Shown here piece by piece: positions 3,263 to 36,215 of a stretch of 64,000 nucleotides of DNA. A model generated the notes under the pieces. That model was not told the DNA's origin, searched no databases, and worked only from the letters and a program-made list of their open reading frames with translations. Numbering within the stretch: the first letter of the stretch is position 1; each line of letters starts with the position of its first letter. Both the position numbers and the translations under genes were made by a program. The stretch covers positions 6,805,134-6,869,133 of the forward strand of contig NC_049997.1 in NCBI RefSeq assembly GCF_000003815.2. The letters are read 5' to 3'. This DNA comes from Branchiostoma floridae (lineage: Eukaryota > Chordata > Leptocardii > Amphioxiformes > Branchiostomatidae).

Positions 3263-6063
3263 AAGCTGGTGTCATTTTAAGTGGAATTCAGTAATAGTGC
3301 TTAACGTTACCAGTTTTGTGGTCTTTTAGGATACACTGACCAGTTGGGATAGCCTAGAATTGATCTTATTCTAGCTCCAATTCTTTTCTCTTATCACATC
3401 AAAGACGTGTACAACTTTTCCAGGTTTAAAGTTCATAGCCGTCTTGCGCAGACAACTTTTCAAGCCGATTCCCAACCACAGATGACCTTGCTCACAAGTG
3501 AATTTCTTGTTGGACCAGTCTAGAAAAAACGGACTTGAAAAAAATCAGTAGACCGAATGCAGGAACGATTTGAAAATGAACAGATTATACAAGTAGCTGG
3601 CGTTGGAGGGTTTTGGGGGCTTAACAATCCAAGAAAAGAACAAGAGTGAAGTAGAGGAGAGTTGATGGACTTTTTTACCTTTTTTCTACAGTCAAACTTG
3701 GTCTAAAACTGAGGCAGTTTACATGTTGTTTACATGACTGGGATAGGAATTTCAAACGTCAATGGTCGTCGGATACTCCACCAAACTGAATCCTTAGTTG
3801 GGAATGGACCATTGTTTTGAGGATCGCCCTTTCACAAGTTTTCACAGATGGACCTGGACCGCAACTGGACCTGGAGTTTCTGTTCTTGTTCTTGTTATGG
3901 TACTGGGCAACACCCCTAATTTGTTGGGGCAAACCACCCAGGGCGTAGTGCTGTTGTTTTATTGGCTGCTCCTCAGATGTTGTAATACCTCTTCCTTAAA
4001 CTTAACGGGGTTAGCTTGAAGGGTGGTAGAGTATGGTAAAGAATTCCAATCGATAGTAGTTCTTGGGAAAAATGAATATTTGAGGCAGTCTTTATTCTGT
4101 ACCGGTAACGTTACCCACCCATACTCAATTCCATGGTTAGTGTAGTCAGCACCAAGGACAGTTACCGTCCCGCCAAAAAATGAGTTTCATAGAGCAAACT
4201 CGTTTATATTTATGTATTTGACACTACATATTCCATAAGTTGATTGTATCAGTTAAGATATATTCCTTTTAACGAACTGCTTTGTTTTATTTGTTGAATT
4301 ACTCATTTTCCGGTGACAATCTAAACCCCCCTCTACGTTGTTAGTTTAGTACGGCCCAGGGGTCATAGGTCACCGTGTCTGGGGGCTACGGAACATTTTG
4401 GATTGGATTTTGTATCAACAAATTAGTAGCTACGCGACAGACTCAGGTCTAACTATCACCAAATTTGTAAGAAATGAACTAGTTTATACCGACATATTGC
4501 AAATCTATCAACTTTTTTCTCCTGAAATTGTCCGAACCTGTATTTAAGAATTATGTAATAATTTGGGTTAGATCGCCCTGATGCCGGCCGTAGTGCTCAT
4601 CCTGTCGACTTGACCCCTCGTAACCTCGCGGCGTTTTTCCCTAAACTGCCATGGTTTTAGGGCTTGATGTTTTCCACGTCTTTAAATATCCTGCTGATAA
4701 AGTCATCAAAACACATCTGTCCAAGGTAGGGGCCACAAATCGCAACGAACCGCCAGAAATTTTGTTGTTTCGAGCGTGCTCTGCAGCTGCATGCTGTTGA
4801 CCTATTTTGTAACAGTTCTTTGTTTTGGTTACGTAACGTTAACGTGAATCAGAATGGACTTTTTTCATGGTTTCAGGCATACCTTGGTGTTATCATAAAC
4901 ACGTATTTTAGATAAGGATTGTTTTGTTGTTTTACCATTGTTTGAAATCAAGTTATGATATTTGTAGTATTATTCTAAATGCTGACAATTTGATTTTCTT
5001 TTGGGGCATACTGTTTAATATTATTATGATCAGAAGCTTGATTTCCTTGCAATTGACATGTTTTATATTGTATTTGATAATCGGGGGTGCCTAAGCATTT
5101 GCAAGAACCTTAAAAGATTCGTACGAATATGGGTTCGTGCAAATCACATAAAGTTCAGCAAATCACCTTGATTTGTGAGATTTTCATAAGGTTCGTGCGA
5201 TTTCGCATAGTGATTCGTGTGTATCACATAAGATTGGTACAAATCTCATAGGGTCCGACCTGTCTTGCATGTAGCTATGCCCCCTGGCAGGAAATAACAG
5301 AATTGCAGTTGGTATGGTGTGTTCCCGTAGATCACAACATGGAGCGCACTGATTGGATATGTGGGGGCCTGCATGCTAATGTCACTGTTCACGTCAGATC
5401 GATGTTCACGTCAGCTCAAAAAAGAACAAGAAACAGTCACACCTTCAAGTACTAGTACCAGAGTTACCAACCTAGGATCGATGTGTTCAAAAATTTGTAC
5501 TTTCCCAGAACTAGAACGCTTGCTGATAGATGTGAAAAAGTTAGGTGTGACGGGTTGTCCAGTGTAATTTAACCAGCTGCTGCGGCGCCACGTGCCTACG
5601 AAGCTGGTGTGTTATGCCAAAGGGCAGTTATACCAGCTATATGGATACAGATACAGATTTGTGACATGCCATGAGGGAGAGTTTGCTGTCTAGCTTGTCT
5701 AGTGTCTGGTGATGTGTCATCTCTCCCAAGACTCTCAAACTCTCCATCTGACAACATACTAGACTAGTATTGTAAATGCAGAAATGTTCTTGGTGTAATT
5801 TTATGTTGGCAGTTTTTACGGTGCCCACTTCACCATGATGTTAAAACCAGTCTGCAAACATTTATCCATTATAGTATGTGACTACTAATGTACAGTCTCG
5901 CTCACCTCACCTGTCCCAATTAGCCGGCTCACTGGCCATAGGGGCAGCAGTGCCATCAACATAAGTTTTCCACCTTCGTCTGTCTATGACGCTACCGCAA
6001 ACTTAAAACCACTGCAAACACTCCATTTTCCCGCTACTGCGAAAGAAAATCCCCGCGAACTTA
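3263..6063. other. intergenic DNA rich in dispersed repeats
   Basis: No exon is supported. About 3700-3900 holds a fragment of the GGTACCGG-type repeat also seen near 9.9, 33.3, 37.2 and 46.4 kb. At 5100-5260 short imperfect repeats of GATTCGTGC.AATCACATA-like phrases occur. At 5400-5660 lies a repeat whose other copies are near 28.75-28.95 and 35.17-35.43 kb (GTTAGGTGT.ACGG...AGTGTAAT..AACCAGCTGC). Confidence 0.5.
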
Positions 6064-12300: not shown

Positions 12301-15300
12301 TACATCATATTCTTGATATCTACTTCAAGTGTTAGAAAGATAATGAAAATGTCTGTCATGTTACTTGTTTAAGAATTCGATAGCTTGTAACTAAGTTTTG
12401 TTATTAGTTTTTTATTACATTCTACTTAAATTTAAGTGGTGCACCCAAAAAATTTTTGGTGCACCCAATTTTTTCAGCTGGGTGCACCTAATCCAAAAAA
12501 TTAATTTCGTGCCCTGTAGTTCGTTCATGCACTATACACAGTCGCTTCTCTGCTATTCCGTCTAGGAACTTGAGCATCTCTGATGCCTGGAATATTCAAT
12601 TTTTATCCAAATTTTGGATGAGGGCGCTGACTGGTCCCATCTGGGTTACGTACTAGTAGTTCACTACTATGTTCACTTCTGCTACCCAAGAAACTTTAAA
12701 TGGTTAACTGATGATCACTGTATTCAGGTGTTGGAATGCCTATTTCGAACAAGCGGCCTAGAACCCATTCCTTATTAATTCCTCAAACCACTGAAATATT
12801 TGCTTGTACAGTTCCCCAGACGAGTAGCAGAAGCGAACATAAAAGTGAACTACTACCGGATGGCGCCCAGGCTAGCCCTTTGGCACATCATTTGGCACAT
12901 CAGCTACACATTAGAGTAGCACTTCTAACGCTAAGCCTAATCTGATTCAAAACTTTGGTGCAATTTAGTTAATTAAGATAGGCCTCTGTTCTTGCGATAG
13001 TGTCTGCCAACGTTGAGGCACTTCGTATCAGCTTCACAGTAGAATGCCACGGGTTATATTTAATAAGTTCCCACTTCTAACTCTAGATCTATTAGCCTTA
13101 ACCTTTGAATATCTGATTCAAAGATTTGGTCTTAAATTGAATAGTCCTTGGCAGGAATGTGCTCTTTTAAGATTCTCTGCAGTATTAGTACTATTACGAG
13201 AAACATAGTGAACACAGAAACAAAATTACAACACGTTTAAAAACAACACGTTAAAAAACATGTTGTAGTTTTGTTTCTGTGTTGACTATGTTTCTTGCTG
13301 CAAATTTTGAAACATTTGTTTTTATTATCCATGGTTTTAGATTTTACAGTGTCCTTTTCACTGCAAATTTACTGTATTACTAACTGTATAAAACAGTTCC
13401 ACAATATTTTTTTCAACTACAGTGTATATGACCAAAACTTTCATTTCACTTGATCCTGCTACAAAATGAAACAGTTACAAATGTAATATTTTCTCTTCTA
13501 TAAGCGCTGGTTTTTCTAGTTCAATATAACGTTGGACTCCTTTTTTTGGTTTAACAATGAACTGAGCGGAAGAAATGGACAAAATTTTGACTGTTGTTAG
13601 GGTATTGGACATAAAAGTGCAGTTGTCAAGATAGAGCCCACTGAAAGAAACAAAGTCGTCTTTAAAGCAAATCGGATTACTAGTACATGGCTAAGAAATT
13701 GGCAATTTAACAGTTCTCAACTCAAGCTTTGATTTTGGCCCTTTGATTTTGAACACTTGAAGTGGCTATTCTAGTAAGGCCACAGCAAGTAAATTTTATG
13801 GATGACATCAGCACGCGGCCGCACGCATTAATTTTCGTCTGATTTCAGGAAAAAAAACAAGATTTTTTTTCCTCTTCGGGGATGGTCAGATAGACCAAAA
13901 TACGCAAACATATGTGTTGTAGCCTAATAATTATACTTGTAGAAGTGACACTAGGGAGGTACTGTAGCCATAGCTATAATTGCAGAAGTGAAACTTGTTG
14001 GATAGTTCTAAAAGTGTCACCAATATGGAAGCCAATGAATGTAGTTGCCAGCTTTGCAAGTGTACCATGACTAGTATCACTTTTACTACACTGGTGCACT
14101 TCTTTAATACAGGAATTAATGCCTTGTTAGTTGCGATGCCACGTTTTGTCACTTCAAATCTTGTTTTTTTTTACCCATCTTGTTTTTTTTCGCGCTATCT
14201 CATTATTTTTGCAATCTACGAGGGGCGTTCAATAAGTAATAACTCTTACCCACTTCCAGTTGTCTGATCTAAATGAAATTTTGCATGTGTAATGATTCAT
14301 ATCTCTATAGTTTATATTGCAAGAAAAAGCTCTGGACTAATTGTGGTTTTTGATTTACTGATGTTTGAACTGAGTTAGGTGTGAAATGGACCAGTTGAGT
14401 GTCGCGCAGTGATCCGGTTTTTGTATTTGATAGGACGCACACCAAAGGAGACTTTTGATGAAATGAAAGAAACTTATGGTGGTGATGCCCCATCATATGA
14501 CCTTGTAAAACGCTGGCATCCTGAATTCAAACATGGCCGGAAGTCTGTGGAAACAGCTCCCAGACCTGGTCGTCCCTCTTCTGCCATTGATGAGACATCT
14601 GTTGGAGGACCAACCTGGGGTGTCCTACAAAAACGGTGTACAGAGCTGCATCAAACAATGGGAGAGATGCATAACTCTGGGTGGTTCCTATGGAGAGAAA
14701 AACTAATAATTGTGCCAAGTTTCATTAATCTCCTGCTATGGGAAATGGATCAGGGGCATTACTTATTGAACGCCCCTTATACATATGATGTCATCCATAA
14801 AATTTCCTTGCTGTGGCCTACTGAATGGACTACTGAGAGCTGCAGTCTAATTAGAATGTAGAAGACTTTTTTCTCATGTTAAAAATCAAAGGCCCAAAAT
14901 CAAAGCTTGAGTTAAATTGCCAATTTCTCAGCCATGTAATCCAATTTGCTTGAAGGCCCACTTGTTTTCACTTGTTATCCATACCAAAGTCTTATATTTT
15001 CTGTATGTTTACTATGTATTCTGTATGTCCCATGTTGCAATTAGCCGTCAGGCAAGAACTTGCAAATAAACTTCTTACTGTTTGTTAACCCTTAAACTGC
15101 CAGAGTTTCAGCCCTATAAAATGCTATCAATGCCAGGGTTGACCTTCAGAAAGAAACCCTCGAACAAGGCTGACGTCCGTAACTTCCGGGGTTTGTGCGC
15201 TACACGCGCGCAAAGCTGCTACTTTGGGGGAATACGCTATCCCAAATATATCCGGGCATGGCACACAGGACATGTATATGTATGCCGGATATATCCAGGC

Positions 15301-20880: not shown

Positions 20881-21460
20881 GCGAGTTCATTATGGCTAAT
20901 AATCCACCGCAAGAGTAGAACCCCTGCTTGAATCGTTCATGAGCCCGTAGCTAGATAAGGCTAAGTTGATCCACAATGTATTTGCCTAATCATCTAATCT
21001 CCAAGCAGATCTTATGATGCCATGAGATAGTATCAAAGCTGGCCAAAGGGAGTCAAACGGGCACCTACGGGAAGTTTGATACTACTAGTATACATTACGT
21101 ACCGTGGATCTGGTTGGAGATTACCACATCTCTCTGTATCCCTGCTTGAACCTTGTGTTCATTAGCCCATATATTGATCATCCACATATAAGTTCATCCA
21201 CATTGTATTTGGCTAATCATCTACTGCAATTATCTCGTGAATCTGCTCCAGATTTCTCTGTATCCCTGATTGAATCGTGTGTTCATGATGCCTTAGATGA
21301 GGCTAAATAAGTAAGTTCATCCACAGTACGTGTATCTGGCTAATAATCTACCGCAAGAGTCTCGTGCATTTGTTCAAGATCTCTCTGTATCCTCGCTTGA
21401 ACCTTGTGTTCATTAGCCCATATATGATGGTTAAGTTCATTCACTGTGTATTTGGCTAAT
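20881..21460 (-). repeat. tandem copies of the GPCR C-terminal coding end in its 3' UTR
   Basis: The last coding bases of the GPCR (21464-21545) recur downstream in transcript direction at about 21348-21425, 21221-21300, 21100-21180 and, more diverged, 20900-20960. The best copies keep a CTAC.GCAA stop-region block, TTTCTCTGTATCC-like or CTCTCTGTATCC blocks, and a GTGTTCAT block followed by GCC.TA, which codes part of the TM7 NPVIYG region in the real exon. Spacing is about 116-128 bases. Confidence 0.8.
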
Positions 21461-21463
21461 CAT

Positions 21464-22968
21464 CTACTGCAAGAGTCTTGTGAATCTGTTCCAGATCTCT
21501 CTGTATCCTTGCTTGAATCTCGTGTTCATGAGGCCATAGATGACCGGGTTTAAGGCGGCGTTTCCGGCCCACAGCAGCATCCCCACCAGGAAGGCCTCCT
21601 CGGGAACGCGGTCGCCGTTCTCTGCGATGACCATCACCGTCATTGGCAGATTGCAGATGACGTAGCTCATGAAGACAGCCACCAGCATCTTCAACATCTC
21701 CTTTTCGGCTGCGGAGAGACGAAGTCGTTGCTTCGGTTTCTTCTTCAGTGGAATCCTGCCAAGTACTCTTGTGTTGGAGCTTCCTCTTCTCGACATATCG
21801 CCGGAAGTGAAGTCGTGGACCGTGGGTTTGGTGTGAATGGTCGTGCTGAAGTTGCTGTCGTGGTCTTCGCGGATGTACGCTTTCCCTCGGCGCAGCTGCC
21901 GCCTCTTGTTCCCACTGCTTGCCCCATCGGGTTCAATCATCAGTTGCCGTTCGGATTGGGGCGACATCTCCTTGGGTGTCTCTTTCCCTCCTCTCGATGA
22001 TGATGATGACACTGATGGTGTTATCTTGTCGCTGATGGTAGATGTCGTCAGGCTGATGGGACTCATGGTGTCGTCTTCAGTAGAAGACGTATGACTCGCC
22101 TGTGGCGGCCCCTCTTTGTCCAGATGTTCAGGCTTCAGGTTGTCCTGTTGACTCTTGCTCCAGGTGCACTTCGTCATGACCGTGGTGGAGTGTACGGTTT
22201 CTGGCACCCCCGGTAGACAGTCTGTGTTATCTTCCACCAGATTTATGTTTAAGGTAATCTTCACGTTGTTTCCTCTTCCCAGGCTGCCTTCTTGTATCTC
22301 CAGGGCGATGGAGGACCGCTTTTGACTCGTGCTTGCTGTCGGGGTGTCGAGCGAAGGTGGCGGGAGCTTGATTTTCGGAGTCGCCGCGCGTCGATTGTGC
22401 TCCAGCATGGTGTTCTTGCTCTTGCGCAGCGCCAGGCAAATCGCAATGTAAGATGCCAGACCGACGAAGTACGGGAGGATCATCGCCACCAGCGCAGCTA
22501 TGATCTTGCCCAGCATACTGTTGGTCTGCACGGCCGCGCAGCGCTTCAGCTTGTCGTCGTACAAGACGTCTCGTTCCGGATGCAGGTGGAGTGGGATGAA
22601 GGCGAGAAGAGGCACCAGCCAGGCGATGGCGACAAGGATGCAGACGGCCTTGGTGGAGCTCATGGCGGGAAAGCGGTAGCGATAGAGAACCCGGAAGAAC
22701 CGGTACACGGCGATGCACCCCATGTGGCAGAGTGACACGCCCCACAGGGCCGGAGTGGTGTAGGATTGGAGCACACACAAACCCCAGGGGAGCCGGAACT
22801 CAGGGTTCAGCAGGGCGAGGATCCACATGGGGGGATGCAGGGCGGTGAAGAGGACGTCCGAGACGCTGAGGCTCGCCAGGGGTATGTTGTCCCGCCTGCG
22901 GAGACTGGGGCACAGCACCACCGCCAGGATGACCAGAAGATTCCCGACGATACCAAAGGCAATGACAG
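21464..22968 (-). CDS. rhodopsin-class GPCR, main coding exon (mid-TM1 to stop)
   Basis: This exon opens after a polypyrimidine tract and CTGCAG acceptor; a 49-nt upstream exon supplies Met and half of TM1. The joined protein is 517 aa. Visible marks: FGIVGNLLVI (TM1), SLSVSDVLF (TM2, the usual Leu-Ala-Asp altered), Cys81 at the top of TM3 and Cys160 in loop 2, a TM5 with LPYFVGLASY, a third intracellular loop of about 240 residues rich in Ser/Thr and basic runs, a TM6 with CNLP instead of CWxP, and NPVIY in TM7. The DRY motif is replaced by VYR (about 104-106). It looks like the melatonin/GPR84-like side of class A, but I cannot assign a ligand. An ORF reading through the acceptor to 23041 exists but loses the TM1 start. 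Confidence 0.88.
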
Positions 22969-23293
22969 CTGCAGGACAAAACAAAAAAACAGATTTACAT
23001 TTTAAAAATAAATTAAGGTTTTGCTGCAGTGCCAATTGCAAGGTAACATTCTAGGGGGCTCAACATCAACAGTGACCTTTGTCTTCCCAAAATCTACGCA
23101 CATAGCAAATATCATCGTGATCCCTGATATCAAGAGGTTCTTGAGTTATGCTGACCACAAAATTTCATATACAAAGACACACACACACGCAGACAGACAG
23201 ACACACCCCAACAATATGTACATTTTCATCGAGATAAAAACCTATGCTTTAGGTTCCACTGCAGCGCCATAGGAAGCAGCTACGTTGTCAATG

Positions 23294-23465
23294 AAGGTTA
23301 GACATCCAGGTAATAAGATACACAAAAAAACAGTTACTCAAGCAACTGGATATGATTTTGGAAACGGTCAGACGTTTCAACTAGCAAAATCAAAACCATT
23401 TCCAAAATCATATCCAGTTGCTTGAGTATCTGCTTTTTGGCGGTGAGTATCTGCTTTTTGGCGTA
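23294..23465. repeat. foldback repeat with GGATATGATTTTGGAAA arms
   Basis: CAGTTACTCAAGCAACTGGA and its reverse complement TCCAGTTGCTTGAGTATCTG face each other, each followed inward by the ATATGATTTTGGAAA block or its reverse. The same family occurs at 54640-54812 and in single-arm fragments near 46.8, 49.03, 60.3 and 63.1 kb. Confidence 0.7.
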
Positions 23466-24359
23466 GCTACGTTGTCTATTATATAACTTGACCGAAACAT
23501 AACCTTCTTGGCAAAGGTGAAGACAGAAAGGTAATTGTAGCCCAGAGTCTTTTCAGACGGCAAGGACAGTGAGTTCTTAAGTTAAAAGTCACTGTTTCTA
23601 GGGCATAGTGTTGGAAAACGGAGTCCAGATATCCCTCTCTAGCCAATGTCTTTTACTTCCCTACGCGAAGTCAAGAGGGGAGTTTGGATGGAGAGACGAG
23701 AATCGTGCACAGTACCCGAACTTCGTGCATGCAGCAAATGACAAAAAATAGCCAATTTTTGCAATTACGAACAAGAAAGCCGTGGTATACATAAAGTCCC
23801 TTGAAATTTGATTACGGTCATTTTTGTGAAATAAAAACACCATTATTTGTAGGGAAGAAAGTAAATACGTGGTTAACACTACTGGTTAACACTACTAATT
23901 ACAAGACTTAGACATAAAGTAATCGTGGTTGCGACGTAGAAATCATTTTATAATATTGGATCAAAGAGGATAATCTTATTGGGGTTGATATTGGTGTTAA
24001 TTGTTGTCCGTTTCGTAAGCGGTCGTTGACATTTCAAATGGTCGTCGCAATAACGCTGAAACCAGTAGCACGTCCGAGCGTTTCATAACTTGGGGGTGGG
24101 GGGTGTTGGGGAAGAAGAAAACATGTATTTACAGCAACATTTCAATTACAAGCGTACGATAGTATCGCAATAAGTTAAAAATTTAATGTCCTTCCTGCAC
24201 CAGATGGTACATGGAAATCTCCGTTTCAGTTGCCCTTGGGCCACACAATGTTTGAGCAATCACTACAGCTGGGTGCAAGCCCAATGTTGGATGTTCAACT
24301 TCTGTACTCTTTCCAGAATGCTGAGTGCTACGCAGAGACAGCAGAATGTACCAAGTCTT

Positions 24360-24440
24360 TTTTTGACTCGGCCGGAATAGAACTCACGACCTACCGAATG
24401 CAAATACTTTAACCACTCGGCCATTGCACCGGTTAGTATC
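24360..24440 (-). mobile_element. tRNA-derived SINE head
   Basis: On the minus strand AATGGCCGAGTGGTTAAAG is a good pol III A box of the Leu/Ser tRNA type, and about 35 bases on GTGAGTTCTATTCC is a degraded B box (GGTTCGAATCC expected). The anticodon arm does not fold well, so it is a SINE or pseudo-tRNA rather than a working tRNA gene. Confidence 0.6.
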
Positions 24441-24718
24441 GTTATGAATGATAAAAATAATATTGAAAAAAAAACGAAAATGCACCAGTTTGTGTTGGAA
24501 CCCGACTCAAAAGGTCCAAACCGTAATCTCTGGTCAACTATGCACAAAATATCACGTTGTGGACCGAGCGTGCTAATACAGTTGAAGTGATAAAGGGTGC
24601 TTATATCATAGATATTAATTACGAGACGGAAATGAGAGACGCTGAAGACATTGTGAAGAATGTCAGATCAAGGTGGGATGATTCCTGTGTAACAGCATGT
24701 ATGTAATAGTGATACTTA

Positions 24719-25296
24719 CGAGGGGCGTTCAATAAGTAATGCCCCTGACCCATTTCCAATCGCAGGAGATTAATGAAACTTGGCACAGTTATTAGTCTTT
24801 CTCTTCATAGGAACCACTCAGAGTTATGCATTTCTCCCATCGTTTGATGCAGCTCTGGACACCGTTTTTGTAGAACACCCCAGGTTTGTCCTCCAACAGA
24901 TGCCTCACTAATGGTAGAAGAGGGACGACCAGGTCTGGGAGCTGTTTCCACAGACTTCCGGCCATGTTTGAATTCAGGATGCCCGCGTTTTACAAGGTCA
25001 TATGATGAGGCATCATCACCATAAGTTTCTTTCATTTCATCAAAAGTCTCCTTTGGTGTGCGTCCTTTCAAATACAAAAACCGAATCACTGCACGACACT
25101 TAACTGGCTCTTTTTCACACCTGGTCCATTTCACACCTGACTCAGTTCAAACACCAGTAAATCAAAAACCACAATTAGTTTAGAGCTGTTTTTTGCAACA
25201 TGATCTATAGAGATATGAATCATTACACATACAAAATTTCATCTAGATCAGACAGCTGGAAGTGGGTCAGGGGCATTACATATTGAACGCCCCTCG
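24719..25296 (-). mobile_element. internally deleted mariner-like element, second copy
   Basis: Both ends carry CGAGGGGCGTTCAATA or its reverse, flanked by TA (24717-24718, 25297-25298). The minus-strand ORF (25134 to 24805) has the same N-terminal transposase helices as the 14.2-kb copy, including KRGHPEFKHGRKSVETAPRP, and the same loss of the catalytic half. That points to one deletion ancestor that was then amplified by a full-length mariner elsewhere. Confidence 0.9.
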
Positions 25297-25978
25297 TATA
25301 TACACCACTTCATTCCTAGTCATACCTAGCCTGTACCAAACTTGGCTCCCACACAGAAGATCGCCAGAGGCGAAGTTACGTTGAGGGTAATTATAACTAG
25401 ACAAACAAAACGAAAATCGACCTCAAACAAGAACGCAACCGGTACAAACCAGTGCACCAACAGCCTGCATTGTCCAACTCGTGAACAGCAGTGTATAGGT
25501 TTTATTTAGCATTAATCATCTTTTTTGTTGTTGTAAATTGGGGATACACTCGTATAATTGGATTGGCAAGTTTTACCTTGTAGCGTATATACATGTCTGC
25601 ATTCAGTTATATATTTGTTTGCTTAATAAAAAAAGATCCCCAGCTCGGTCTGGAGAGGATCGACGGAAGACCGTGGTTGGCTATTTGGAACAAGGTCTTC
25701 AGCTGCACCTTATAGTTACGTCACAGGAGGCACACCGCCTCCACTCTCATGACGTCAGAAGGAAACTCTAGAAATGCTCAAGAGATCTGCAGGATCTTGT
25801 AAGCTCAACCCTTGATTTGAAAACTATGTCTGACCTAACTCAACTTTTACTTAGAGGTTCACCCTCTTTATCAAAGGAAACAAATACCAACATTATGCAT
25901 CATATTTAAAAAAAAACAGTCACATACACTCCAGACCAAACGTTTCCAAATTGATTGAACATTGTCCTTTAAAATATT

Positions 25979-25980
25979 GG

Positions 25981-26011
<31 letters not shown>

Positions 26012-26030
26012 TGTTGGATCCCCCCCCCCA
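25979..26030. repeat. (AT)n microsatellite followed by a C run
   Basis: AT dinucleotides from about 25980 to 26008, then a nine-C tract near 26021. Confidence 0.9.
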
Positions 26031-26204
26031 CTGCTGTACTTTGTTTTGTCCTTTGTTTATCTTATTTTCGAATGTCCCAGTGGTGATATTAGCTCTGCTA
26101 GAGTGCATTCACCCTGTGTCTTGTCTGATACGTAAGAACCGATCTCGGGTTTCCCTTTTCTGCTCCCGATCTTACAAAGTGCGTACACAATTATGTAGGA
26201 ATTT

Positions 26205-27290
26205 GATATTCAAAGCTGTGATTGAAGCAGTTCTTAATTTCACAAAGCCATTGAAATGAGATCTACAAATATTCTTCATGATTGATGTCATCAAAACCAA
26301 GCAGAATTGACCCTTTGGTTATATGAATAAAGCCTTAACCAGCAGGATAAAGAATTCGATCCTTGCTGACCTGTTCGAAATGACATGAAGAAAAGAGAAA
26401 ATCGAGCTTAGTTGATATTTGATTCATTTGACATTTAAAACCACGAATGACCTTAATAAGCGAAATAGAGCTTTCCTGATAAATTAGTTCTGATATGTAA
26501 GAAATGATTAAAGGACATGGCATGAACAATCGGGCAAAATGAGCATTCTACTAGTTAGGTGATTCGTGTGAAGCAAGAATGGTACCTCGTTGAGTTTAGC
26601 ATTGAAGATATGGTTGAAGCAGTCCTTAATTTTACAAAGCCATTGAAATATGGTATAGAAATATTTTTACGGTTGATGTCAGCAAAACCAAGCAGAATTG
26701 ACTCTTTCATTATATGAATGAAGCCTTAACTAGCAGGATAAAGTATCGTTAGTTTCTGACCTAATTGAAATGACATGAAGAATAGGGAAAATCGAGCTTA
26801 GTTCTAGCCTTTATTAATTTGATATTTAAAACCATGAATGACGTTGTTCTTAAGAAGTTAAGGATGAAGCCTTATTAATAAGTGAATTAGAGCTTTCCTT
26901 AGTTCTGAGATGTAAGAAATGATTAAAGGACATGTTATGAACAATCGGGAGAAATGAGCTTAGGGCTAGTTTTGGTCCGTGTGAAGCAAGAATGGTACCT
27001 TGTTGAACAGGATTTGACATTTAAGGTATGGTTGATCGGGAGCAGTCCTTAACTTAACAAAGCCACTGAAATATGGTATAGAAACATTTTTTTACGGTTG
27101 ATGTCAGCAAAATCAAACAGACTTGACTCTCTCATGGTATGAATGAAGCCTTAACAAGCAGGATGAAGCATTCGTTAGTTGCTTTCGAATTAATTCTAAA
27201 ATGTTTGAAAAGACATGACGAATAGGGAAAATGAGCTTAGTTCTAGTGACATTTGAAACCATGAATGACGCTGCCCTTAAGACTTTAAGG
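26205..27290. repeat. three-unit tandem repeat of about 0.4 kb
   Basis: Units beginning near 26208, 26605 and 27024 each carry AAGC..TCCTTAA.TT..ACAAAGCCA, then GAT.TCA.CAAAAC.AA.CAGA.TTGAC.CT, ATGAA..AAGCCTTAAC.AGCAGGAT and AAATGACATGAAGAA-like blocks. A fourth, shorter relative is near 29840-29990. No coding potential. Confidence 0.75.
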
Positions 27291-27628
27291 AACACATCAT
27301 CAAGGAAGTACGGACACCTAGAAAGAGTCCTTTTTTCCTAGAACTATTCCAGAGCGGAATGCCCTGCCTGGCCCGGTGTAACAGGACCGTGGCGTGGTCA
27401 CCCTGGTCGGTAGACCTACGTTTTGCCATTTTGTGACACAGTTTCCGTTTTGGTAATGTGTCCCTAAAATGTTCCTGACTCAGAAAAAGTTACCGAATGT
27501 TTTATTACCAAAATAAGAACTGAATGCCCTGCCTGACACGGTAGTAATTGCTCCCACCGTGGAGTCTTTCCGTGCAGGAGGACTGCCACCCTAACACGGG
27601 ACCTCACCACCCCCCCCTCAACGGTAAT

Positions 27629-27701
27629 ACTACGCTTCAAGCATAGCTTATTGATGAAATCTTAATGAGATTTCATCAATAAGCTATGCTTGAAGCGTAG
27701 T
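27629..27701. repeat. perfect 34-bp inverted repeat with 5-base loop
   Basis: ACTACGCTTCAAGCATAGCT and onward to AATCT is exactly mirrored as AGATT... to ...GCGTAGT around a TAATG loop. The lack of any mismatch suggests a recent origin or ongoing homogenisation. Confidence 0.85.
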
Positions 27702-28555
27702 AATTATTTATCAATCTTAGATACCAGATACAAGCATGGTAGAAAAACATCATTCACTGGTGACGTCCTAAATACCGAAATAGAAATGATAGAAATTATT
27801 GAAATGATTGTGTGCATGGTTCAATGACGTCGTGTAATAATGAGCAGCATTTTTGTGTGGATTCTCCTGTCGATTTGACAGATGAGGAGGCAGACAGGCA
27901 TTTGCCTGTTCGACTGACCTGCACATGACTTTTTACGGTAAAGAAGAAGTGTGCAATTCATTCTCCACCCTCTCGTCTATTGGAGCACCAAGTCTCACAG
28001 GGGCAACTGTATGCAACGTGTGAGGCGGCTCCAGCAGATGCAGCTTTGTTGTTCGGAGTATCCGTCTCCTAGGAGGACTTCCAACCAAGGATGTAAGGGG
28101 TTCCTCCTACCCCGACTTTTGTACCATGGCCACCAAAACACAGAATAGATCCTAAAATCCTACTAATTAAACAATATAGGATAGTAAAATGCAACTAATT
28201 CAACTAACAATTATATAGGATGATAAGAATCCTCCTGTCACAATCTTTTCTAATTACAAATCAATCTTTTATGTATCTACTTATCATAGCATTATGATAG
28301 CTGTCGGATCTAAAGATAGTCAAATCTACTTCTGGTATCTAGTATCTTGAAAGTCAACGTACGGTGTCGTAGGATTTTGAATCAGATTGTAATGGACCCA
28401 AACGCTGACAAGGATGTAAGATTGCGCTTCGGGGATCAAGACAGCTAGCTGAGGCTCAAGTTATTACCATAGGGATACAGGGATACAGATGCTGTTGCGT
28501 AGGCAAGCTTTGAGTTCGGCATGATGTTAATCCACCTCTGACCAAGGACGTTATA

Positions 28556-29184
28556 TAGTCCTTGCTCTGACTGAATGCGTGAGCTAGGCAAAATATAACA
28601 TTGACGTTTTTTCTTTAAGCTAGAGGTACAACGCGGCTACGTACGCCGAGCACACTAGTACTGGGTCACCCCTAACTTCCTCCATAGTTCGGTTACGTGC
28701 AGCTGTAGAGGCTAGCTAGTATCTGTATCTGTATCTGTATCTATATAGCCGGTATAACCGCCCTTCGGCGTAACACACCAGCTTCGCAGGCACGCGGTGC
28801 AGCAGCAGCTGGTTATATTACACTGAACGATCCGTCACACCTAACTTTTGCACATCTATCTGCAAGCGTTCTTTAAAACTATCCAGAGAAGATGCCCCTA
28901 ATGTGCTTGGTGATAACAAGTTCCACTCTACGATAATTCTGGGAAAATATGAATTTTTGAACACATCAATCCTAGGTTGGTAACTCTTGTATTTGAAGTC
29001 ATGGCTTAGTAAGTACAGTCCTTGCTCTCACTGAGTTCGTGAGCTAGGCAAAATATAACATTGACGTTTTCAAGTTCTTTAAGCTAGAGGTGCAACGCGG
29101 CTACGTACGCCGAGCACACTAGTACTGGGTCACCCCTAACTTCCTCCATAGTTCGGTTACGTGCAGCTATAGAGGCTAGCTAGT
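28556..29184. repeat. duplicated 165-bp flanks around a CTGTATCTGTAT-type repeat
   Basis: 28556-28717 and 29019-29184 are near-identical (AGTCCTTGCTCT.ACTGA... to ...AGAGGCTAGCTAGTA). Between them lies a repeat with GTATCTGTATCTGTATC, GCCGGTATAACCGCCCTTCG and CACACCTAACTTTTGCACAT, related to 5.4-5.66 and 35.17-35.43 kb. Confidence 0.7.
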
Positions 29185-29267
29185 ACGTTCAGTGCAGTAA
29201 GTCACAAGAAAGGTACAGCACAAGCAACCTGCCTCTAACACTAGTAATGGCACACGGTTTACAATTT

Positions 29268-29347
29268 CGAGGAGAAGGTTTGCCGAGGAGAAGGTTTGCC
29301 GAGGAGAAGGTTTGCCGAGGAGAAGGTTTGCCGAGGAGAAGGTTTGC
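29268..29347. repeat. five tandem 16-bp units
   Basis: CGAGGAGAAGGTTTGC is repeated five times without a mismatch. The homologous segment upstream of first exon C (about 31615-31630) has a single, slightly different unit, so the expansion is local and recent. Confidence 0.9.
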
Positions 29348-29497
29348 TTCCTCTTACAATGCAAGCTGTGACTATGGATAAACAGCCAAGAGTCTTAACC
29401 TTAGCTTACTCCGCTTGGTACCGACAATTGTATAGAGATCATGGTTTTAGGCAGCAACTACGGAAGCAGATTTTTGTCGATCTGCTCGAGTACTCAC

Positions 29498-29546
29498 CGA
29501 CTATGATGACTAGAAAGGTGTAGAAGAGCGCGGTAGAGACGGCCAT
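29498..29546 (-). CDS. GPCR alternative first exon A
   Basis: Minus-strand ATG at 29546; the 16 codons read MAVSTALFYTFLVIIV, then one base and the donor G|GTGAGTA. Joined to 22968 the split codon is GCT (Ala) and TM1 becomes continuous. It is the copy nearest the main exon, 6.5 kb away. The codons for MAVS and YTFL are shared with B-D. Confidence 0.75.
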
Positions 29547-30015
29547 CCTATCGGGGATTCGCGGTGTAAGTCTTGCCTTACATAATGTATACTATATATA
29601 AAAATCGGTCAGAAATCGTATTATGAGAGATGGGATTTTAATAGAGGCCCCGAGGTTTTAGAAAATCGTATTGACTTCAAAGGTTTTGTTTTATTGAATG
29701 TTACTTAGCATGTAAGATTTTATGGAAAAGCATGCTAATCGCTGGTTCAATCTTTTCGCAGGCTATAGAACAATCGGAAAAAACAAGCTTACTTGTGGTC
29801 GTTAATTCTGTACAGTAGGAATAGCCTCTCAAAGAGAAGATTTCGGTCTTCAAAGGTATGGTTAAAGTCGTCTTTGATATTGCAAAGTCATTGAAATATT
29901 GTATAGAAATATTATTTACAGTTGATTTTTGCACAAATCAAACAGACGTGACTCTCTTATGGTATGGAGCAAGAAAGAAGCCTTGATGATCAAAATTCAA
30001 TGAGTCGATTCTATA

Positions 30016-31098
30016 TAACGGGGGCCGCCCTAAGATGCCCCCTGCCCTAAGATGCCCAGATTTTTTGCTGATCTTATTATGCATAAGTACGCCGTGTTTG
30101 TTGCCACTGACTATGATGATTAGAAAGGTAAATAAACCAAGTCCAAACAAACAGCTTTTTTCTATTAAAATTTTGTTTACACATGTTCACTTCCCCTTTT
30201 TTTAAGACAGAATTTTCACAATAATGTTGGTACTGCCGGATCACCGTGGTCACCTGTTACTAGGTATTGGTGGCTCGTGGCCATAAATAAACAACCAATA
30301 AAAACAGCCGCACAACTGTCATACACATAAGAAACAAAGCTTCACAAAACACTACAAATATTGGTCTCCAAATGTTTCTTGAGTAGAAGACCGGCCATAG
30401 AAAAAAAACAACATAAGCATCACCGCCGTTGTTTTCCCCAGGGAGCGTGGCCCCGCAGGTGGCAGACGAGCGAACGCCCAAAAGATTTGTTACTTTAAAA
30501 ATGATTCGTACCGTCTATAAAAATGAAACTTCACAGAGTGATGTCGAATATGTTTCCCAATACGTACACAGAGAGTGTTTGTGATTTTGGTGTTGTAGTT
30601 TTTCTTAATGATTTTGTTAGTCGGGCCGCCGCATTCAGTGCATTTCGCCCATTTCCCATGAAAATACGACCTGGATTGTGAATGATTTAGCCCTCCTCGC
30701 GGGAGACAAGAAGCACGCACAATCACAATTCTACTGTCAAAAGAAAGCTTATATATCATAAAATTAGAATTTTTATTTATGTTTGTCTAAATTGGTCACC
30801 AGCCTCCGAAGAGAGCAAATTCCAAAAGCAGGGCAAGTTAGGGCGCAATGTTTAACGCGGCTCAAAATCGGAATTTATATTCACGATAACGTCCTCGGTG
30901 TTTGCCAGTTGTAACGCGGAGGGTGAAGAGTTCATGAACAGTATTGATGCCTTCCTTATTCAAGTATGGTCTTTAGATATGAATGTGTTAAAAATTCATT
31001 GATCAAAACTTGACCACTCTTTGGCAACTAGTGATGGAGCGCCGTGAGTTCGAGCGCGTAAAAAGGGGGGGGGGGGCATCTAAGGGCGGTCCCCGTTA
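30016..31098. mobile_element. TIR element of about 1.08 kb
   Basis: Left end TAACGGGGGCCGCCCTAAGA and right end TCTAAGGGCGGTCCCCGTTA are inverted repeats, each continued by ATGCCCCC or GGGGGGCAT. No clean target duplication is seen and no transposase recognised. Minus-strand ORFs at 30260-30481 and 30490-30759 have no motif. A fragment of GPCR first-exon sequence lies inside at about 30106-30130. Confidence 0.6.
30106..30130 (-). pseudogene. fragment of a GPCR first exon
   Basis: GACTATGATGATTAGAAAGG matches first exon A with one difference, but the donor GGTGAGT has become a non-donor and the ATG half is missing. Too broken to function. Confidence 0.55.
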
Positions 31099-31417
31099 CA
31101 TATACCATTCATAAATCAAAATATCATACGGCTGTTCCAAACTCTGTGAATTATACTGTTGAATAAAAAGAGATGTAACGTTTGGTTTCATGTGCGGGCA
31201 TGTGTTTGATTCCCAAGATGTACATGTTCTAAAGAGAGTGAACTGGCTTAACGATGCACACCCCAGTTCTTCCGAGGTAGTGCGCGACAAAAAAGTGACG
31301 AAAGGCTTCCGAGGGTCAATGTTTGAGTTGAGATTTCTCAGGCTATTCGGTACCGACATTTGTATAGATCATGGTTTTAGGTAGCAAGAGGAATTAAGGT
31401 TATGTGGAGCTACTCAC

Positions 31418-31466
31418 CGATCATTATGACCAGGAAAGTGTAGAGAAGCGCCGGAGAGACGGCCAT
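31418..31466 (-). CDS. GPCR alternative first exon B
   Basis: Minus-strand ATG at 31466, 16 codons (MAVSPALLYTFLVIMI) plus one base, donor G|GTGAGTAG. The peptide is identical to that of exon C. The flanking 80 bases (GGTTATGTGGAGCTACTCAC and the TCATGGTTTTAG block) also match C, so B and C are the most recent duplicates. Confidence 0.75.
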
Positions 31467-31728
31467 CGTGGCCGGGTAGCGGTCTCAGCAACATAGTTCG
31501 TTTACGGGCAGAGGGTAGGTACTACTTCGTTCAGCGCAGTAAGTCTCAATAAATCATTTTCAGGAAAGGTACAAGCAACCTGCATATGACACTGGCACAC
31601 GGTTTACAATTTCGAGGAAAAGGATTGCTTCCTCTTACAAGTTGTAACTATGTCTGCAGTCTGGGCACCGACATTTGCATAGATCATGGTTTTAGATAGC
31701 AAGAGGAAGGTTATGTGGAGCTACTCAC

Positions 31729-31777
31729 CGATCATTATGACCAGGAAGGTGTAGAGAAGCGCGGGAGAGACGGCCAT
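31729..31777 (-). CDS. GPCR alternative first exon C
   Basis: Minus-strand ATG at 31777, same peptide as exon B, donor G|GTGAGTAG. Its upstream region (31790-31920) resembles that of exon D, including CTGCCGAATCGAAT and AGCCAATCAAAA, the reverse of a CCAAT box, so it may have its own promoter. Confidence 0.75.
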
Positions 31778-31916
31778 CGTGGCCGGGCAGCGGTCTCCAC
31801 CACACACACAGAGAGAATCTTCTGTAGGGTTCTGAACCCGACTCTCTCACTGCCGAATCGAATGACGAACGCAGTACGGTAGCCAATCAAAACCCTCCTA
31901 GCGTGAGGCTATAGGT

Positions 31917-32120
31917 GGACTCTCACTGCACTTGGGGCACCGGTGCGGCACTGCGGGGTTCGTAGATGACTCAACGAATTTCAATTTACGTTTTGTGTAT
32001 TTTGTTGTTTTCTATGTCATATTGTTGCGTATAACGCAATATCTAGATTATTAAAAGTCGCGAAAATATCCAAACAGTGCCGCAGTGAACGAACCCCGCA
32101 ATGCCGCACCGGTGCCATTT
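31917..32120. mobile_element. TIR element with GGGGCACCGGTGCGGCA ends
   Basis: CTTGGGGCACCGGTGCGGCA then CTGCGGGGTTC at the left is mirrored by GAACCCCGCA..TGCCGCACCGGTGCC at the right. A second copy is at about 42490-42712. Confidence 0.6.
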
Positions 32121-32149
32121 ACATCCAAATATTAAAGTTCTTTTTTTTT

Positions 32150-32420
32150 TTGGTCACCACGTAACTGGACCTGAAGGCCACTCAAGGTTACGGGTTACAC
32201 GATTGTAACTGTAACAGCATCTCTTTGCCCTAGGTCAGAAACATCATGATTGAGACCAGCCCAATTGCTCACTATGAGTGAGGACTAACTGACCCAATAG
32301 GCGAAGCAGGGGTTACGAGGACTGTTCGGGAGATTCCCTACCCCATTTCGGCCGGAATGGTTTGATCCGCTCATGTTCGCACATGTGACGGGCTCTTTAA
32401 CGTTTTAATTCTTGTGTAAC
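32150..32420. repeat. uninterrupted copy of the 10.27-kb dispersed repeat
   Basis: Reverse-complement match to 10270-10410 joined to 11471-11640, with CGTAACCCCTGCTTCGCC (read on the minus strand) spanning the insertion point. This is the empty site for the 10411-11470 transposon. Confidence 0.7.
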
Positions 32421-32672
32421 GTTTCTAGTTTTCCTTCCTTTACTACTTTATTACTTCGAGGTCTTTGAAAACGCTTTTTGCCTAGAAGCGCTCACGTCAG
32501 ACCCGTACATCTGATAAGCTGCCATGATGACAAGCCAATTAATCTATTCTTTCTAACAATCAATGGAAAGGCGACGTTACGCCCCAGGGTTTACGTAGGC
32601 GTAAAACCGCCAGCCGCCCCAGGCCTACGTCACATTTCCTTAATATGCAAGCAGATCCAACAGAGAAACTCA

Positions 32673-32976
32673 CGATGCCAGCGTTTTGCAAGGTCATATG
32701 ATGGGGCATCATCATCATAAGTTTCTTTCATTTCATCAAAAGTCTCCTTTGGTGTGCATCCTTTCAAATACAAAAACCGGATCACTGCGCGACACTCAAC
32801 TGGCTCCATTTCACAACTGACTCAGTTCAAACACCAGTAAATCAGACACCACAATTAGTTCAGAGCTGTGTTTTGCAACATGATTCATAGAGATATAAAT
32901 CATTACACATGCAAAGTTTCATCTAGATCAGACAACTGGAAGTGGGTTAGGGGCATTACGTATTGAACGCCCCTCG
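32673..32976 (-). mobile_element. truncated mariner-like fragment
   Basis: Matches the start-side half of the mariner copies, from the KRW..F region to the terminus, ending ACGTATTGAACGCCCCTCG followed by TA at 32977. The other end has been lost. Confidence 0.85.
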
Positions 32977-33257
32977 TAGTATGAAAATCAGGCAAATGAG
33001 TGAAGCCGGCCTAGTAGTCTCAATTGGCTAGACCGGCTACACTCCTTTGCCTGCTTTTCATACTCTTTTATGGCATCGTAGGATCTGCTTGGAGATGAAG
33101 AACTAGAAATTGAAATTTATGCCAATAGATATATGCACAAGGCATGCTGTTAAATTATTTTTTGTCCGTTTAGTGTTTTTGTTGTCTTTAATGTCGTACT
33201 TTTTGTTCCCCCAAACTGCTCGACCGGGCACCTTTGTGGAAATGTGACGTTAGTAGG

Positions 33258-33670
33258 GGTGGGTACCGGTACAGAAAATTAAGGTCCAGGTCCGGTTCAG
33301 GTCCAGAGGACCAGATCCGGACTTGAACCTGGACCTGATTCAGTATGTGAAAACTTGTGAATGGACAATACAGAAAACAATGGTCCATTTCACTACATTA
33401 AATATGTTTCGTGGAGTATTTGACTCCCACTAGCTTTTTAAAATTCTACAGGGTTGACTGCCTCTGTACTATTGACTGTAAAACTTGGTAGAAATGACTA
33501 TAGACACTACTCTACTTCGCTCTTGTTATCTTCCTCGACCGGTAAGCCCCCAAACATGTGAATGCCTGAACATATAATATGTTCATTTTCTAATATGTCC
33601 AACATCTGGTCCACCGGTTTTTTTCAGGTCCGGTTTTTCTGGACCGGTACAATAAGAAACAAGAGTCTGA
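33258..33670. repeat. GGTACCGG-type dispersed repeat
   Basis: GGGTGGGTACCGGTACAGAA, then GGTCCAGGTCCGG-type runs, and a distal TTTTTCTGGACCGGTAC block. The same layout is at 37185-37510. Confidence 0.65.
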
Positions 33671-33699
33671 AAACTCAAACCTGCTTGAAATATTTTGTT

Positions 33700-35170
33700 T
33701 TGTGATGGTGCGTATGGTGTGTTGTGGGGGTTGATATGGTTTGACGTTTGGCAAAATTATTCCATCATTGTTCTTAAGTTATATATCTACCTATGGTAAA
33801 CAGTGAGATCCAAAACTACACCTTTCTGGTGTCCTCACCATTTCATTTTTATTTCCTATTGTTACACCTGCACCTGGCACATACATTGTATCTCAATGTG
33901 TATATAATGGTTCACACCATACAGAGGTGACAGCGATGGTCACAGTTGCTCTTTTTTGCTCCTTGGAAGATTTTGACCAGAATGCCCCAGCAGTTCTAGA
34001 GCAAGCTGCTAGAGGGCCCAAACATACAACACTTCTTCCTTACACCACAAGCTATGTGCCACCAAAAATCAAGACCATAGCATATCCATGTCAAAAGATA
34101 CAAAAATCCAAGTTCTGTTGCAGTACCAAGGTCACACACCAGGGGATCCAAAATTGACTTTGACCTTCGTCTTCCAAACACCTACCCAAATACCAAATAT
34201 CATTACAATCCATCAACAGGTTCTAAAGTTATGCTGACCACAAATATGTGGAAACACAAACAGACACACACACAGACACACCAAAAACTATACCTCCATT
34301 TTTCATGGAGGTAAATCACACGTTCTGTTCTGGAGATATAGCACTGGAAACGACCCTTCCACACACTCCCATGCTACTGAAAACTCAAAACACATGTTAC
34401 ACCTGCTAGCTGTCCCCAAGGAGGTTGAGACAGAGGGAATGAGGCCAGATCACTCCATATCAGGAAAAGGGGTGTAAATATTTTTTTTTAAACGAACCAC
34501 AAAACAACAGCAAACTTCTGATCTACTTAATAGCACAATAGGTCACACACTCTATCCCCATAGCAAAGGAAATCGCAATCCATCCAGAGGTTCTAGAGAT
34601 ATCGGTCCGGAATCACAAAGATCCCTACCAGAAACAGTACATGCTTTTTTCAAGCATGTAAAAACGGTTTTGTACGGGTATGATCCAAGCTTTTTAAATA
34701 GGACTTTTTAATGTGTAACATATTAGTAACAGCAAGATTAAGGCTCTATGGCCAGAATTCATGACAGAAATATTCGAACTACAGGTACCCATTTGTACAC
34801 CTAGGTTCAGTGAGGAAAGTCGTGTTAAGTGTCTTTTCCACGCTTAAGGGCAAACGATCGGTAGCATGACTGGGTTTGAACCCAAAAAGCCAACTCTGCC
34901 TTTTCGCCAGACGACACGACCCACACAAGACACATTAGAAATAAAAGTTTATCAACACCACACAGGTCAAGGTGCAAAGATATAATACAAAACGTGCTGC
35001 TGCAGTACCAAGGTCAACTAACAGGGTGCCCAAAACCACCTGCACCATCGCCATACCCCCACCTACCTACCTACCAAAAATCATTGCAAACCTTTCAGGA
35101 CGAGGTTTTTGAGATATGAGCGGTTCTTATCAACAAGCACAGTATGGGCATCTTTAAATTTTCTGGATAG
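33700..35170. other. GPCR upstream intron DNA with SINE-like and fragment repeats
   Basis: Between first exons C and D. No further MAVS-type exon is visible. TACCTCCATTTTTCATGGAGG (34290s) and a similar phrase at 35477-35496 are short repeat fragments. A 76-codon ORF at 33927 is unsupported. Confidence 0.4.
34780..34922 (-). mobile_element. SINE with tRNA-like head and conserved tail
   Basis: On the minus strand TTTGGGTTCAAACCC is a B-box-like block, followed by GACACTTAACACGACTTTCC and a GGTGTACAAATGGGTACC tail. A plus-strand relative lies at 41806-41945. Confidence 0.65.
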
Positions 35171-35263
35171 TTTCAAAGAACGCTTGCAGATAGATGTGCA
35201 AAAGTTAGGTGTAACGGATCGTTCAGTGTAATATAACCAGCTGCTGCCGCGCCGCGTGCCTGC

Positions 35264-35433
35264 GAAGCTGGAATGTTACGCCGAAGGGCGGTTATACCGG
35301 CTATATCGATACAGATACAGAAGCTGGTGTGTTACGCCGAAGGGCGGTTATACCGGCTATATCGATACAGATACAGAAGCTGGTGTGTTACGCCGAAGGG
35401 CGGTTATACCGGCTATATAGATAAAGATACAGA
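35264..35433. repeat. three 56-bp tandem units
   Basis: GAAGCTGG followed by TGTTACGCCGAAGGGCGGTT and ATACCGGCTATAT..ATA recurs at 35264, 35320 and 35376. Single copies of the unit occur near 5.6 and 28.75 kb. Confidence 0.9.
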
Positions 35434-35519
35434 TATACCCCACATACGTTCCAAAGTGAAAACGGTATAGCAACAATACCTCCATCTTCATGGAGGTAAA
35501 AAAATACAAATCTACTCAC

Positions 35520-35568
35520 CAACCAAGACGAGCAGAAACGTGTAGAGAAGCGGAGTTGAAACCGCCAT
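35520..35568 (-). CDS. GPCR alternative first exon D
   Basis: Minus-strand ATG at 35568, codons MAVSTPLLYTFLLVLV plus one base, donor G|GTGAGTAG; most diverged of the four but in the same phase. It lies next to the repeated CCAAT-bearing block at 35620-36215 and is 12.6 kb from the main exon, so it may be the ancestral first exon. Confidence 0.75.
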
Positions 35569-35619
35569 GGTGACGGGATAGCGGTCTCCACAGCACGCAG
35601 AGAAAAGCTTCTGTATGGT

Positions 35620-36215
35620 TCTGAGCCCAACTCACTCACTGTCGAATCGAATGCTAAACACCTTGGTACCTGCCAATCAAACGCTTCCAATGTTGCCATG
35701 GAAATGTTACGAAACTGACTAACACAGAAAGAAGCTACCGAACCCTGGCTCACTTACTGCCGAATCGTATGATAATCACCTGGTACCAGCCAATCAAAAC
35801 GCTTCCAATGTGAGGTAACGTTAGGTAACCAATTGCCATGGAAACGTTACGAAACCCACTCCTTTAGTCATTGCATTGCTTTGATTCATTACTTCGTGCC
35901 TTTTGAAAACGTTTTTTTCTACCGAACCCAGCTCACTTACATAACCGAATCGTATGATAATCACCATGGTGCCAGCTAATAAAAACGCTTCCAAAGCAAT
36001 GAGAGGCAGGTGATGTATTGTTGCCATGGAAACGTTACAAAACCGCCTCCTTTATTCATTGCATTGCTTTGATTCATTGATTAGTGTCTTTTGAAAACGT
36101 TTTTTATCACACACTTTGAAAGAAGCTACCGAACCCAGCTCACTTACTGCCGAATCGTATGACAATCACCATGGTGCCAGCCAATCACTACGCTCCAAAT
36201 GTGATATTCAAATAC
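35620..36215 (-). promoter_or_regulatory. repeated putative promoter module of the GPCR
   Basis: A block holding ACTGCCGAATCGTATGA, TCACC.TGGTGCCAGCCAAT and GCTTCCAA.GTGA, then GTTGCCATGGAAACGTTACG, occurs about four times (near 35640, 35755, 35935 and 36135), and again upstream of first exon C near 31850-31905. AGCCAAT read on the minus strand is a CCAAT box in reverse. GTTGCCATGGAAAC matches the palindromic RFX X-box consensus. Promoter function is inferred from position and repetition. Confidence 0.5.

Follow-up and report, generated by a model that had tools for sequence, protein, structure and literature searches.

How does a receptor gene come to have four first exons, and are all four used to start one and the same receptor? 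The question is raised by a 64,000-nucleotide stretch of the Branchiostoma floridae genome (C19:6805134-6869133, hereafter the window). On its minus strand lies one exon that encodes a class A G-protein-coupled receptor (GPCR) from the second half of transmembrane helix 1 (TM1) to the C-terminus, with a long third intracellular loop. Four candidate first exons of 49 nt, here named A to D, lie on the same strand 6.6-12.6 kb upstream of this body exon. We propose, with a probability of about 0.72, that the body and these exons belong to one class A receptor gene, in which local duplications of a promoter and exon module have produced a small set of alternative first exons, and that its expression can probably begin at several starts.

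The first-pass annotation of this DNA had described four 49-nt minus-strand exons, and their coordinates, ATG codons and G/GTGAGT boundaries are confirmed to the base (Table 1). Each exon comprises an ATG, 16 codons in all and one further base, followed by a GTGAGT donor (4/4), and the start context is good in every case (A at -3, G at +4). The acceptor TTTTTTTGTTTTGTCCTGCAG/CT, with 15 of 19 pyrimidines, lies directly 5' of the exon that begins at 22968; joining A, B, C or D to 22968-21464 yields a 517-amino-acid open frame with a common stop. The open frame of the body (21467-23050) has no methionine ahead of TM1, and the body therefore needs an upstream first exon. Scanning both strands of the window for ATG, 15 sense codons, one base and GTGAGT returned four matches, exactly exons A-D, while first-order Markov sequences of the same length contained this pattern 0.32 times on average and three times at most (100 runs). 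The earlier statement that the 13 kb between exons and body hold no second body also stands: a tblastn search with the body, at expect values (E) up to 10, found the body once in the window, and the remaining matches were three short tail-like pieces at 21124-21428 and others listed at E 2.7 or worse.

Judged from predicted gene structures, members of this receptor family normally begin with a short phase-1 exon that ends in the middle of TM1. Our whole-genome searches covered 513,431,437 bases in 431 contigs. A search with the body protein raised 269 candidates, 86 of which were scored, and the matches with E up to 1e-20 lie in 24 places; the family thus occupies at least 24 places, the window's own included. 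An acceptor AG is present at the identical point of TM1 in 24/24 members. Among the 23 paralogs, 17 have a located short first exon, a single one in each case, with the ATG 0.4-5.3 kb upstream of the body. The nearest paralog (C19:12335783-12337312), 5.5 Mb away, is 47% identical overall and 66% over TM1-TM5, where the proportion of synonymous sites that differ (pS) is 0.58. Its TM1 is split likewise, and 1.3 kb upstream stands a 49-nt first exon, MTISPVLQYVVVVIMI + A; no second first exon of this gene was found in 27 kb. Since the family members share the TM1 split and 17 paralogs have a located short upstream first exon, first exons of the A-D type are real.

Ten of the 17 paralog exons came from upstream regions of 27 kb (one), 9-10 kb (eight) or 2.8 kb (one), and seven were first found by a sister-type pattern only, three of these being measured, at 43 nt. 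Altogether 13 of the 17 were measured, at 43, 46 or 49 nt, the other four being called by pattern alone; the exon of the C1 paralog has a GTACGT donor. A similarity-free motif scan for hydrophobic phase-1 exons of 40-55 nt with a fitting donor, and in a second step with Tyr as the eighth residue from the end, gave exactly one candidate in 10 of 11 paralog upstream regions, none in the C5 region and four in the window, compared with 0.4 per 130,573 bases in letter-shuffled controls (5 shuffles). The Tyr criterion was picked after the exons had been seen, and the Tyr common to the ten called exons is the selection criterion itself. Dropping it added 12 candidates: a single TG/CA-repeat region ahead of the nearest paralog accounts for seven, and one lies in the window; shuffled sets gave 6.4 candidates in all per set, and the 12 were set aside. 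The sister-type pattern matched 15 times genome-wide (reversed control 0) and never twice for one body; it might overlook duplicates that differ as much as C and D do, and the motif scan covered 11 upstream regions only. Two of the 15 matches have no listed body and adjoin damaged bodies, with pieces within 2 kb. One lies beside a truncated body (locus L044, C19:15598500-15605600, near 15605415) and the other beside an internally deleted body (L045, C3:6395500-6402600, near 6402422).

The array itself is confined to this locus. The body DNA matches the genome in a single 100% copy, itself, and in one further stretch. The pattern of exons A-D, with up to 2 mismatches, was found four times in 513 Mb, always in the window (reversed control 0); this uniqueness holds at the sensitivity of the pattern, and relics of the module beyond its reach may exist. 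Whether the exons might join receptor bodies elsewhere had been raised at the outset, and genome-wide searches with the exon pattern and the body protein found no other body for A-D.

The four exons are homologous, with 35-47 of 49 bases identical in pairwise comparison, as against 22-32 of 49 between A-D and the exon of the nearest paralog. Because A-D are closer to each other than to the paralog exon, the array probably arose after the two genes had split. B and C differ at two sites, both synonymous, and pS rises from 0.16 (B/C) through 0.32 (A/C) and 0.48 (A/B) to 0.62 (B/D and C/D) and 0.65 (A/D), while the corresponding proportion for nonsynonymous sites (pN) is 0 to 0.17. Across codons 2-16, 7, 0 and 11 of 15 columns vary at codon positions 1, 2 and 3, and the absence of variable second-position columns has p = 5e-5 if variable columns are placed at random. 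We simulated neutral evolution in three lineages with substitutions only (no insertions or deletions; 20,000 runs). ATG, GT and frame survived together with P of 0.23, 0.13, 0.07 and 0.05 at pairwise p of 0.15, 0.20, 0.25 and 0.28; with the further demand of no second-position change, the values fell to 0.006, 0.001, 5e-5 and 0/20,000. Survival of ATG, GT and frame is by itself unremarkable, and the weight lies on the codon pattern. Based on this pattern and the simulation, the exon copies were held as coding sequence through most of their separate history. Together with the first-exon anatomy of the paralogs, this divergence supports the proposal of one receptor with four start exons.

Homology between the modules reaches past the exons. 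The upstream blocks of C and D are identical at 90 of 121 aligned bases (74%), A and C have about 350 nt of downstream intron in common, in pieces at 72-80% (blastn), and B is part of a 145-nt, 91% duplicate of C, of which only about 27 nt lie upstream of the ATG. The sequence upstream of A shows no clear homology to the other upstream blocks. Because the homology covers exon-flank pieces of differing extent, it appears that modules, not whole genes, were copied, and at different times. What lies upstream of B is also the region that follows C, and it matches the intron after A; a promoter of its own is therefore doubtful for B. A possible decayed exon piece within the array (Table 1) is perhaps a dead fifth exon, although the match may be due to chance. 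Further copies of the distal part of the promoter-like C/D block, without exons, lie upstream of D at 35740-35815, 35924-35994 and 36131-36204.

Table 1. Features of the receptor locus, in window positions
Feature	Position	Strand	Remarks
Receptor body exon	21464..22968	-	two bases finish an Ala codon, then 500 codons + TAG
First exon A	29498..29546	-	MAVSTALFYTFLVIIV + G; donor GTGAGT
First exon B	31418..31466	-	MAVSPALLYTFLVIMI + G; same protein as C
First exon C	31729..31777	-	MAVSPALLYTFLVIMI + G
First exon D	35520..35568	-	MAVSTPLLYTFLLVLV + G; most diverged of the four
Putative promoter block of C	31778..31900	-	inverted CCAAT (ATTGG) at -110
Putative promoter block of D	35569..35691	-	inverted CCAAT (ATTGG) at -109, another ATTGG at -123
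Putative TATA-type promoter of A	29547..29610	-	TATATATA at -54; consensus match only
Intron stretch after exon A	29147..29497	-	homologous in pieces to 31492-31728 after exon C
Possible decayed copy of 3' half of exon A	30105..30132	-	no ATG; 25-nt match, 92%, E 0.005

A number of observations weigh against an array of alternative first exons. The constraint may lie in the past, as an exon that had recently gone out of use would look alike, and the codon test rests on 48 nt. Exons A-D are 6.6-12.6 kb from the body, as against 0.4-5.3 kb in the 17 paralogs with a located exon, and for 6 of the 23 paralogs the first exon was not located. B has no promoter homology to C or D beyond about 27 nt upstream. 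An AG precedes each first exon (at -17 in B, C and D and at -1 in A, with 9-14 of 19 pyrimidines); that before D, with 14 of 19 pyrimidines upstream, compares with 15 of 19 at the body acceptor, and internal use of some exons, notably D, is thus possible. Finally, a non-homologous candidate exon, MKMYILLGCVCLSA, with a GTGTGT donor, lies 261 nt upstream of the body; we set it aside on the sole ground that it lacks the family features.

It could be that only one of the exons is now in use, probably C or D, which have the common upstream block, and that the others are tandem duplicates that have not yet decayed. One exon suffices in the paralogs, B has diverged least and shows no promoter homology, and the possible decayed piece at 30105-30132 and the exonless repeats at 35740-36204 suggest that modules break down here. 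However, 32% (A) and 62% (D) of synonymous sites differ from those of C, second codon positions are unchanged throughout, and ATG, frame and GTGAGT donor are intact in 4/4 exons, an outcome of low probability under neutral decay; we consider single use unlikely, though with a real chance of being correct. The first-pass annotation had also suggested that the extra exons once served receptor copies now lost. The family does form tandem arrays, with eight bodies on contig C201, and damaged members exist, but this alternative is weakened to the point of being very improbable. While the two first exons elsewhere that lack an intact body still have body pieces within 2 kb, tblastn found no body fragment between or beside A-D, and B and C are 311 nt apart, leaving no room for a body now. 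Nor does a repeat common to the stretch before the body and to the array (23039-23198 and 34127-34281) speak for lost bodies, as it is dispersed. That the array is an assembly artefact, with alleles of a highly heterozygous animal placed in tandem, is scarcely credible. B and C are indeed 91% alike over 145 nt, but the repeats are short modules of unlike length and flanks, and A and D differ from the others at 8-14 of 49 bases, above the allelic expectation. We thus favour one receptor gene with alternative first exons, and infer that their upstream blocks act as promoters and that at least two of the exons are used, with the use of B in mRNA the doubtful one of the four.

What kind of receptor do these exons start? 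Class A GPCRs are marked by GN in TM1, DRY after TM3 and NPxxY in TM7. The body matches Pfam 7tm_1 (rhodopsin-type) at E 5.1e-31 over residues 8-477 and profile positions 1-260 of 260, and its translation contains VGN and NPVIY, with YRF at the DRY position, off the consensus. Its best sequence matches in PDB are GPR84, the melatonin-related receptor (GPR50) and MT1, at 61-62 bits each; for a 304-amino-acid part of one paralog, GPR84 comes top, followed by the alpha-2A adrenergic receptor and MT1. The receptor is thus an orphan of a GPR84/melatonin-like group. The first exon stops mid-TM1, ten residues before the N of the GN motif, and by this gene structure the receptor is not a vertebrate-type melatonin receptor. 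Counting from that N as 1.50, we take the first exon to cover residues 1.25 to 1.40; it contributes a very short N-terminus and the first half of TM1. Amino-acid differences among the exons fall at positions 5, 6, 8 and 13-16 and are all conservative, with the MAVS start and the Tyr fixed. The three N-terminus/TM1 variants expected earlier, B and C encoding the same protein, are correct.

Under the reading we favour, local duplications of the promoter and 49-nt exon module, after the split from the nearest paralog, would have produced four start exons. Each would provide a start codon, residues 1-16 and a phase-1 donor compatible with the single acceptor of the body. The site of transcription initiation would decide the exon, the module that fires supplying the ATG and half of TM1, and the donor of the chosen exon would join the next good acceptor, that of the body. 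The TM1 changes are conservative, and too few residues precede TM1 to form a ligand-binding N-terminus. The copies are therefore more likely to have been kept for regulation; separate control of expression would be a likelier payoff than protein change, and although an effect on the protein is possible, the data give no hint of one. Such control would likely run through a TATA-like element for A and a common, putative CCAAT-type block for C and D; B has neither of these and probably adds little. A stronger version, in which each first exon has its own promoter, cell types or stages choose among them and the alternative TM1 halves alter signalling or membrane insertion, is conceivable, but we regard it as tentative and rather doubtful.

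The locus also holds repeats. Remnants of Mos1-type transposase (Pfam HTH_48) lie at 14385-14858 (+) and at 24808-25146 (-), the latter between the body and exon A. Among 10 further open frames of the window, Pfam found the helix-turn-helix domain of Mos1-type transposase in two and nothing in eight, and scans of the window with Rfam (gathering threshold) and for tRNAs gave no matches. A 93% direct repeat has one copy between the body and A (25125-25298) and the other between C and D (32805-32978). The arms of a 163-nt inverted repeat (95%), at 28728-28890 and 35159-35321, flank exons A, B and C, and a 56-nt tandem satellite at 35264-35431 adjoins exon D, with a further partial copy at 5600-5658. 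Copies of the dispersed repeat lie at 23039-23198, 34127-34281, 34544-34602 and 35009-35118 and also at paralog loci on C3, C5 and C6, in both orientations. The copy at 34127 is 85% identical to a C5 copy, as against 73% to that at 23039, and because the repeat is dispersed we rejected it as a trace of a duplicated body acceptor. At 21124-21428 (-) the last codons of the receptor and its 3' flank recur in three tandem copies, about 116-127 nt apart, the nearest of which retains an open frame up to a stop, IIYGLMNTRFKRGYREILNKCTRLLR; at the locus of the nearest paralog, a motif scan found that gene's own tail only and no tail copies. We set the tail copies aside as alternative last exons, since by eye no AG stands immediately ahead of the nearest one.

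The array has the layout of a variable-first-exon cluster, namely homologous tandem first exons on the same strand upstream of one constant region, with an in-frame join predicted for 4/4 (phase 1, GTGAGT, 517 amino acids). The first exons of UGT1 encode a large N-terminal domain. Vertebrate UGT1 and GCNT2 are described as variable-first-exon clusters, the variable part of UGT1 being this acceptor-binding N-terminal domain (PMC1885805). As in these genes, tandem homologous first exons stand ahead of a common part, and variable exons are born and die. Unlike in UGT1, the variable part in amphioxus is just 16 residues, mostly half of TM1, and the constant part is one exon; promoters are reported for clusters of the UGT1 type, whereas those of the amphioxus array are putative. 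Insect gustatory receptors are seven-helix proteins that do not belong to the class A GPCRs. The array resembles one of them, Drosophila Gr39a, a chemosensory receptor in which duplicated alternative exons are joined to shared ones and for which exon gain, exon loss and purifying selection are described (PMC2204066). In Gr39a, however, the alternative exons are large and the shared exons small, the reverse of the amphioxus gene.

For amphioxus, a melatonin-receptor-like expansion has been described, with 19 members in the melatonin cluster, in a report that uses no words starting with intron or exon in its main text (PMC2246102). The first exon of vertebrate MTNR genes runs from the N-terminus through the first intracellular loop (PMC7541902). 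The amphioxus gene is like these in being class A and in its two-exon coding structure, and unlike them in that its intron lies mid-TM1 and its first exon is multiplied. In the open-access literature, screened by title, we found no report of such a first-exon array in an amphioxus GPCR, and among the titles listed on duplicated or variable first exons none concerned a GPCR.

Whole-gene copying is a common route by which receptor families diversify, and this family, with its at least 24 places in the genome, does so too; here, one member appears to have copied the start module only. If our reading is true, the locus is a variable-first-exon cluster whose variable part is half a transmembrane helix, and the array arose after the gene had parted from a family whose members as a rule have a single first exon. 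Paralogs with a single exon would then serve as built-in controls for asking whether first exons are kept for their promoters or for their protein, and the locus would offer a small, clean case for the rate at which such modules are born and lost.

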